A DNA stretch of 35,602 bases from NCBI GenBank assembly GCA_022614695.1, contig JAKEIC010000044.1:1-35602 (forward strand). Direction: 5' to 3'. Made by a program: the position numbers and the translations under genes. Of this stretch, positions 18,601-20,271 are shown in pieces. The DNA comes from Planctomycetales bacterium. Lineage in GTDB: Bacteria > Planctomycetota > JAKEIC01. Numbering within the stretch: position 1 is the stretch's first letter; each line of letters starts with the position of its first letter. The notes beneath the pieces were generated by a model. The model did no database searches, was not told the origin of the DNA, and saw only the letters and a list, made by a program, of their open reading frames with translations.

Positions 18601-18623
18601 GAATCCCCGCGGAGCGGGGATTC
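18601..18623. promoter_or_regulatory. Perfect 10-bp hairpin immediately before the amrS start
   Basis: GAATCCCCGC (18601-18610) and GCGGGGATTC (18614-18623) are exact inverted repeats around a GGA loop. The right arm ends one base before ATG 18625, so in the mRNA it would hide the only SD-like sequence (GGGGA). The element begins inside a TAGAAT hexamer (18599-18604) and starts 4 bases after the stop of the previous gene. It may act as a terminator for the upstream gene, as an operator, or as translational control of amrS. Confidence 0.6.
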
Positions 18624-18624
18624 C

Positions 18625-20271
18625 ATGGCCGAGACTCTGGAGCAGGCCCTCGACGCGCGCACTGCCGAGGCGGCGCCGGCGCTGGTGAGGGGCGAGGGCG
18701 CGGGCGCCGTCCGCTGCCTCGCCTGCGGCCACCGCTGCCTCATCCGCTCCGGCCGGCGCGGGATCTGCCGGCTCCGCTTCAACCGGGACGGCGTCCTCCG
18801 GGTGCCGCGCGGCTACGTGGCGGCCCTCCAGTGCGACCCGATCGAGAAGAAGCCCTTCTTCCATGCCCTGCCCGGCGCCGACGCGCTCTCGTTCGGGATG
18901 CTGGGGTGCGACCTGCACTGTTCCTACTGCTTCCCGCCGGGGACGCGGATCCTGACGTCGCGGGGGCACCTCCCCATCGAGGCGATCTACGAGGAGGCGA
19001 GGAGAGAATCGGGCAACGAGGCCGAGGCGCTCCCCGCCCCAGATGGGCTCTCGGTGGCGACCCACCGGGGAGTCGTGGCACAGGCATCCCGGGTTTTCCG
19101 TCATGACTTCCGCGGGAGGTTGGTCCGGCTCATACCGACCAGCCTGCCCGCAATCGAGGCGACACCCGAGCACCCCTTCCTGGCCGTCGCTCGGCCGCGG
19201 CGTGGCGAGAGACTCGCCCCACCCAGATTCGTGCCTGCCGGCGGGCTGGGCCGGGATCACCTCCTCGCCCTTCCAAGAAGTCCCGGAGGTCCGACGGAGT
19301 CGCTGCCCGGCTCGCCAGCCGAGTTCGAGACCGAGGACTACCTATTCGTCGGCCTGCGGGGCACGGAGACCAGGGCGTACGTCGGCCCCGTTTACAACCT
19401 CGAGGTCGAGGGGGATCACACGTACCTCGCGAACGGCATCGCGGTCCACAATTGCCAGAACTGGGTCACTTCCCAGGCCCTCCGCGACCCGGCCTCGACC
19501 CTCGAGCGCGAGGACGTGACGCCCGCCCAGCTCGTGGACTTGGCCGTCCGCCGCGGGGCGCCGGTCGTCGCGAGCACCTACAACGAGCCGCTCATCACGG
19601 CCGAGTGGGGCCACGAGGTCTTCGAGGAGGCGCGGAGGCGCGGGCTCGTCTGCGCGTTCATCTCGAACGGGAACGCCACGCCCGAGGTGCTCGACTACCT
19701 CCGGCCGCTCGTGGACCTCTACAAGGTGGACCTGAAGGCCTTCGAGGAGAAGGCCTACCGGTCGCTCGGGGGGACCCTCGAGAACGTCCTGCGCACCCTC
19801 GGCCACCTGATCGAGCGGAAGTTCTGGGTGGAGGTCGTCACCCTGACGATCCCCGGCTTCAACGACTCGGAGGAGCAGCTCCGCGGCATCGCGCGGTTCC
19901 TCGCGGGGCTCTCGCGCGACATCCCGTGGCACGTGACGGCGTTCCACAAGGACTATCGGATGACCGATCCGCGCGCGACCACCGCGCGCGACCTGGTGCG
20001 CGCGGCCGAGATCGGCGAGGCCGAGGGGCTCCGGTTCGTCTACGCCGGGAACCTCCCCGGGCGCGTCGGGAAGTTCGAGGACACGCGCTGCCCCGCTTGC
20101 GGCGCGACGGTGGTCCGGCGCGTGGGCTACCGCATCCTCGACGTGGCGCTGCGCGGGAACGACTGCCGGTCCTGCGGGGCGCGCGTGCCGGGCGTCTGGA
20201 CTCTCCCCGACGGCCGCTCGACGTGGTCGGGGCCGACGGGCGAGCGCCGCCCGGCGCCCGTGACGCCGTGA
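18625..20271 (+). CDS. amrS: AmmeMemoRadiSam-system radical SAM enzyme AmrS, intein-containing precursor
   Basis: The precursor is 548 residues. Removing the intein (102-276) leaves 373, about normal for AmrS. The N-terminus has a Cys cluster, CLACGHRC (31-38) with C48, followed by the family's DPIEKKPFFHALPG (71-84) and SFGMLGC (89-95). The radical SAM motif C95-DLH-C99-SY-C is interrupted; after splicing it continues CQNWVTSQ, the classic AmrS sequence. Downstream are the TYNEP and SNGNATPE turns, the KVDLKAF strand, YAGNLPGR, and two C-terminal CxxC pairs (C489/C492 and C514/C517), possibly a zinc site. The family is named for genomic association with AMMECR1 and MEMO1 proteins; the reaction is unknown to me. 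Neither partner gene is in the window. GTGA overlap couples it to the small membrane protein that follows. Confidence 0.93.
   Translation: MAETLEQALDARTAEAAPALVRGEGAGAVRCLACGHRCLIRSGRRGICRLRFNRDGVLRVPRGYVAALQCDPIEKKPFFHALPGADALSFGMLGCDLHCSYCFPPGTRILTSRGHLPIEAIYEEARRESGNEAEALPAPDGLSVATHRGVVAQASRVFRHDFRGRLVRLIPTSLPAIEATPEHPFLAVARPRRGERLAPPRFVPAGGLGRDHLLALPRSPGGPTESLPGSPAEFETEDYLFVGLRGTETRAYVGPVYNLEVEGDHTYLANGIAVHNCQNWVTSQALRDPASTLEREDVTPAQLVDLAVRRGAPVVASTYNEPLITAEWGHEVFEEARRRGLVCAFISNGNATPEVLDYLRPLVDLYKVDLKAFEEKAYRSLGGTLENVLRTLGHLIERKFWVEVVTLTIPGFNDSEEQLRGIARFLAGLSRDIPWHVTAFHKDYRMTDPRATTARDLVRAAEIGEAEGLRFVYAGNLPGRVGKFEDTRCPACGATVVRRVGYRILDVALRGNDCRSCGARVPGVWTLPDGRSTWSGPTGERRPAPVTP
18928..19452 (+). 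mobile_element. Mini-intein (Hint domain) inside the AmrS radical SAM motif
   Basis: This 175-residue in-frame insertion carries the splicing blocks. Block A is CFPPGTRILTSRG with Cys1. Block B contains IEATPEHPFLAV, with the T-x-x-H catalytic pair at intein residues 79 and 82. Block F/G is VYNLEVEGDHTYLANG followed by IAVHN, with penultimate His174 and terminal Asn175, and Cys as the first C-extein residue. No LAGLIDADG or other homing endonuclease motif is present between the blocks, so this is a mini-intein that is not mobile on its own. Its codons include AGA, CCA, CCT and AGT, which are rare in the flanks, and local GC is lower, consistent with a different origin. All residues needed for the standard Cys1 pathway are intact, so splicing is expected. 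Confidence 0.93.

Follow-up and report, generated by a model that had tools for sequence, protein, structure and literature searches.

A mini-intein in the cluster-binding motif of the radical SAM enzyme AmrS from a Planctomycetales bacterium, and its same-site relatives in other phyla

The AmrS gene of a Planctomycetales bacterium is interrupted, within a 35,602-nucleotide stretch of DNA (contig JAKEIC010000044.1; hereafter the window), by an in-frame insert that in all probability (roughly nine chances in ten) is a class 1-type mini-intein that splices, and that represents an endonuclease-less member of a mobile intein family found at one fixed site of AmrS. AmrS is a new host and insertion site for an intein of a known kind.

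The AmrS open reading frame occupies positions 18625-20271 of the forward strand, encodes 548 amino acids, and is free of stops over 18625-20268. Its translation reads GC95-DLH-C99-SY101 / C102-FPPGTRILT...ATPEH...VYNLEVEGDHTYLANGIAVH-N276 / C277-QNWVTSQ, where the slashes mark the two junctions. An N-extein of 101 residues (18625-18927, forward strand), which carries the cluster cysteines C95 and C99, is followed by an insert of exactly 175 codons (18928-19452, forward strand) that extends from Cys102 to Asn276, and by a C-extein of 272 residues (residues 277-548; 19453-20268, forward strand) that starts with Cys277 as the +1 residue and carries a C-terminal CxxC...CxxC. Removal of the insert leaves 373 residues and restores the CxxxCxxC motif as CDLHCSYCQNW, the same as in empty-site homologues, with C277 as the third cluster cysteine of mature AmrS. 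An earlier note, made from the sequence alone, had given the same insert of 175 residues and had predicted an AmrS of normal length after excision; translation and comparison with empty-site relatives show its boundaries to be correct to the base, and its prediction also stands. Upstream of the frame, an inverted repeat with perfect 10-bp arms and a loop of 3 bases (GAATCCCCGC GGA GCGGGGATTC; window positions 18601-18623) stops 1 base short of the AmrS start codon, where it would span the gene's ribosome-binding region.

The assignment of the host protein to AmrS, also proposed in the earlier note, is supported by the AmrS profile TIGR04337, which matches the whole protein with 243.5 bits (cut-off 220) and takes in both exteins, and by alignment of the exteins with AmrS proteins. 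Alignment of the N-extein with empty-site homologues extends as far as the splice junction, the C-extein contains a match to the Radical_SAM domain (PF04055), and the CQNW sequence at the downstream junction is identical in empty-site homologues. In two relatives from the same phylum (G023 and G020), AmrS lacks the insert and its N- and C-terminal parts are contiguous. A scan of 392 genomes of the phylum for the motif CDxHCx(Y/F)C found the motif followed by TT, with which a Phe codon begins, in the window alone; in 14 other genomes the next two bases were CA, which begin the Gln codon at empty sites. The empty-site relatives, together with 23 homologous filled sites at other loci, support the proposed location of the insert between the second and third cluster cysteines. 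The exteins retain the residues that are invariant in AmrS, and a single AmrS hit was obtained in the window's genome (88% complete, 369 contigs), where AMMECR1 (PF01871) and Memo (PF01875) were found at two and three places, respectively, all on other contigs.

Identification of residues 102-276 as an intein is based on profiles and on structure prediction. A search with Hint and intein profiles, which the earlier note had proposed as a check, gave matches above cut-off to TIGR01445 (intein_Nterm; E 5e-9, 37.0 bits, cut-off 24.5) and PF14890 (6.6e-9, 36.2 bits, cut-off 35.8) on the insert, and to TIGR01443 (intein_Cterm; 39.1 bits, cut-off 15.6) in the full protein. The insert with short flanks is predicted by AlphaFold2 to adopt a Hint fold (mean pLDDT 88.2, pTM 0.85), and Foldseek comparison of this model with the PDB places inteins on top (6rpq with E 3e-10; PhoCDC21-1, RadA, PolB1, KlbA, DnaB and GyrA). 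The Hint strands also appear when the whole precursor is modelled (pLDDT 84.1); in that model the loops around the junctions are of low confidence.

Class 1 inteins have a Cys or Ser at position 1, a TxxH in block B, a catalytic Asp in block F, and a penultimate His and terminal Asn followed by Cys, Ser or Thr at +1. Block A of the AmrS intein (CFPPGTRILTSRG; 18928-18966, forward strand) begins with the nucleophile Cys102, or Cys1 of the intein, which stands at the place of the third cluster cysteine and is present in all 21 extracted members of the family. Block B reads TPEH (19162-19173, forward strand), and T91 and H94 are invariant in an alignment of 19 inteins. Blocks F and G (VYNLEVEGDHTYLANGIAVHN; 19390-19452, forward strand) end in the sequence VHN/C, which supplies the penultimate His, the terminal Asn and the +1 Cys, and position 258, that of the catalytic Asp in block F, is occupied by Asn; this Asp is strongly conserved in class 1 inteins, albeit not universal. 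The earlier note had read blocks A, B and G correctly, but not block F: the block usually so called reads VYNLEVEGDHTYLANG, with Asn for Asp. Because this Asp is missing, the designation class 1-type is founded on Cys1 and on the absence of the block-F Cys of class 3. A profile search of the 175-aa insert gave no LAGLIDADG match, which bears out the absence of a homing endonuclease and the designation mini-intein.

The suspicion that copies of the intein might exist in databases proved right, and such copies are widespread. A survey of other AmrS loci found 23 of 80 fetched loci filled, a fraction that is not a prevalence among AmrS genes because the pattern set of the genome scan included VHNCQNWV, which favours filled sites. 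Filled sites were recognised by the distance between extein matches, and in every locus with two legible junctions the insert interrupts the same codon position. By record title, the filled loci belong to Chloroflexota, Rokubacteria, Latescibacterota, Omnitrophota, Bipolaricaulota and Acidobacteriota. The extracted inteins are 154-454 aa in length, the majority being 421-454 aa, and three other mini-inteins are present at the AmrS site (L043, L044 and L045). Each of the three full-size members scanned contains a match to LAGLIDADG_3 (PF14528), with E of about 1e-12 to 1e-15, and a profile of the family hits intein endonucleases of solved structure, for example PI-PkoII (E 2e-31). The family shows a consistent Asp-to-Asn change at the catalytic position of block F, with Asn in 20 of 21 members; the penultimate His, present in the window's intein, is missing in 13 of the 21 extracted inteins. 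Several same-site copies are irregular. Two acidobacterial loci lack parts of the gene, most of intein block A in one (L056:3001-5208) and the cluster motif and intein start in the other (L059:3001-5151), for which an assembly fault is possible, while one filled site has an internal stop (L047:1818-4226) and two have a frame change between the exteins (L053:1211-3566 and L064:3001-5377), which may reflect sequencing error or decay.

Several lines of evidence indicate that the family is mobile. On an extein tree of 82 AmrS proteins (24 filled, the window's included, and 58 empty), the filled or empty label requires 13 changes, and at least seven of these changes are forced by well-supported branches. 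A filled and an empty locus (L043 and L057) are near-identical sisters, with about 92% DNA identity on the C-extein side, and their DNA alignment picks up again at the splice codon. In the intein tree, the inteins of sister exteins are separated, and AU tests reject intein pairs that would mirror the extein sisters (L052+L063, p=0.0005; L046+L050, p=0.001; L070+L083, p=0.002), a conflict which indicates that inteins moved between lineages. The window's intein has a GC3 of 82% and its exteins one of 98% (Fisher p 1e-9); in each of the 18 other loci measured, intein GC3 was likewise below extein GC3, with a significant difference in 16 of them. The patchy filling, the tree conflict and the GC3 gap agree with horizontal transfer into a fixed site, and the family probably entered AmrS genes via endonuclease-driven homing between distantly related bacteria. 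By identity, the intein closest to that of the window is found in L051 (51% over the Hint part), and the place of the window's intein in the intein tree is weakly supported (83/73). Since the window's intein has no endonuclease, the endonuclease was presumably lost after arrival; alternatively, the intein may have arrived already as a mini-intein by recombination. Searches of viral, phage and plasmid sequences with the intein retrieved no AmrS-like relative, the matches being distant or limited to the C-terminal block. The family thus supplies natural empty, full-size and mini alleles of a single site.

With all canonical residues present save the block-F Asp, splicing of the AmrS intein is likely. 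The 548-aa precursor would splice autocatalytically, with an acyl shift at Cys1 followed by transfer to Cys277 and cyclisation of Asn276, and the product would be a 373-aa AmrS with an intact cluster motif and the junction peptide CDLHCSYCQNWVTSQ. The Asp of block F has a catalytic role in inteins (PMC10663303), and DnaX, CDC21, KlbA and DnaB, the solved inteins matched here, all have Asp at the corresponding position. The unspliced precursor reads CDLHCSYC, a nominal CxxxCxxC completed by Cys1 of the intein. The earlier note had considered the enzyme dead until spliced; the insert does lie in the cluster motif, but Cys1 fills the third-cysteine position, so that inactivity of the precursor is plausible by reason of the broken loop and not of a missing cysteine.

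The same cysteines suggest a possible role for the intein as a redox or Fe-S gate, through which AmrS would be made only in a reducing cell. Oxidising conditions would trap Cys1 either by a disulfide with Cys-3 (C99) or by cluster ligation together with C95 and C99. The intein of Pyrococcus abyssi MoaA, which also has a radical SAM host, contains a Cys-3 and Cys1 that are reported to form a redox trap (PMC3922620), and their spacing is the same as that of C99 and C102 in the AmrS precursor. This likeness is drawn from the published description and not from a comparison of sequences, and the P. abyssi protein, in which the trap was shown, is archaeal and a different enzyme. By analogy with this arrangement (PMC3922620, PMC10663303), redox-gated splicing of the AmrS intein is plausible; Cys1 is the sole cysteine of the 175-aa intein, CDLHCSYC is intact in the precursor, and Foldseek matches the insert to 3nzm, a DnaE redox-trap structure. 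That the intein has been retained as such a gate is nonetheless rather doubtful, as the patchy distribution and the near-identical empty alleles fit a mobile parasite that is dispensable to its host. Moreover, Cys-3 is provided by the choice of the cluster motif as insertion site and is therefore no evidence of selection for regulation. A stronger version, in which natural selection has repeatedly favoured AmrS inteins as an on-switch of this oxygen-sensitive enzyme, with Cys1 completing the motif, a disulfide or Fe-S cluster gating splicing, and the family splicing with a block-F Asn, is distinctly unlikely. The Cys-3/Cys1 pair of AmrS nevertheless offers material for testing redox control.

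It is more improbable still that the insert is degenerate, or a Hint domain capable of cleavage only, in which case the precursor would be cut, the exteins would stay unjoined and AmrS would be inactive in this organism. The Asp-to-Asn change in block F, the loss of the endonuclease and the broken appearance of some same-site copies (L056 and L059) could be read in this way, but the other splicing residues are canonical, including His-Asn/Cys, the exteins keep the AmrS-invariant residues, and the gene is the sole AmrS hit in a genome where the usual partners are present. The possibility that the segment is a normal structural domain or the product of a chimeric assembly, the latter conceivable in so fragmented a genome (369 contigs), is rejected because same-site homologues occur at 23 other loci and the segment is absent from colinear empty alleles, and the intein profiles also score above cut-off.

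The splicing mini-intein preferred here joins other inteins of radical SAM enzymes, which are already known from MoaA (described in the literature) and from curated models for Tes (NF045703) and the Rv2578c family (NF038136), and the novelty implied by the earlier note is correspondingly smaller. The NF045703 profile for intein-containing Tes aligns with the AmrS precursor from C95, the first of its cluster cysteines, into the intein, but this match is far below the model cut-off, and Tes is a different enzyme. A search of curated profiles found no NCBIfam model for AmrS inteins, and a full-text search, weak in that subscription journals are mostly uncovered, found no paper on an AmrS (AmmeMemoRadiSam) intein or on intein-containing Tes. 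What is added is an intein insertion site that recurs over six named phyla, in a family for which no published or NCBIfam-curated intein was found.

A second radical SAM enzyme of the window's genome is similarly interrupted. A PA0069/Rv2578c-type protein (L132:28-2142, reverse strand; G000:C107), which scores above the cut-off of the PA0069 family model NF033668 and below that of NF038136, contains a 341-aa intein at CETACVY/C...HN/CYARPTHEY. This intein occupies the same position in CxxxCxxC as the AmrS intein, but its best match among the AmrS inteins, at E 0.76, is not significant, so that two intein lineages appear to hold the same motif, apparently independently, which makes CxxxCxxC look like an insertion hot spot. 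In contrast, a full-size intein of 368 aa in IspG of a rokubacterial genome (G395 C50, L136:113-2356, forward strand), inserted at VMG/C...HN/CEVNGPGEA, is related to the AmrS inteins (E down to 7e-25). It precedes an IspG cysteine and has Asn in block F; IspG is not a radical SAM enzyme, and the same genome also has an AmrS intein.

The best same-phylum match to the intein in the survey (35%; L135:2-2683, forward strand, G029:C76) is not an AmrS intein and was set aside as a Hint domain, ending in VHN near the C-terminus of a repeat-rich, Rhs-like protein. The window's genome contains further inteins, one of 434 aa with an HN/S junction in GyrB (L133:736-4701, reverse strand; G000:C204), and another in a protein which, from its sequence, we take to be RtcB-like (L134:3-2339, forward strand; G000:C319).
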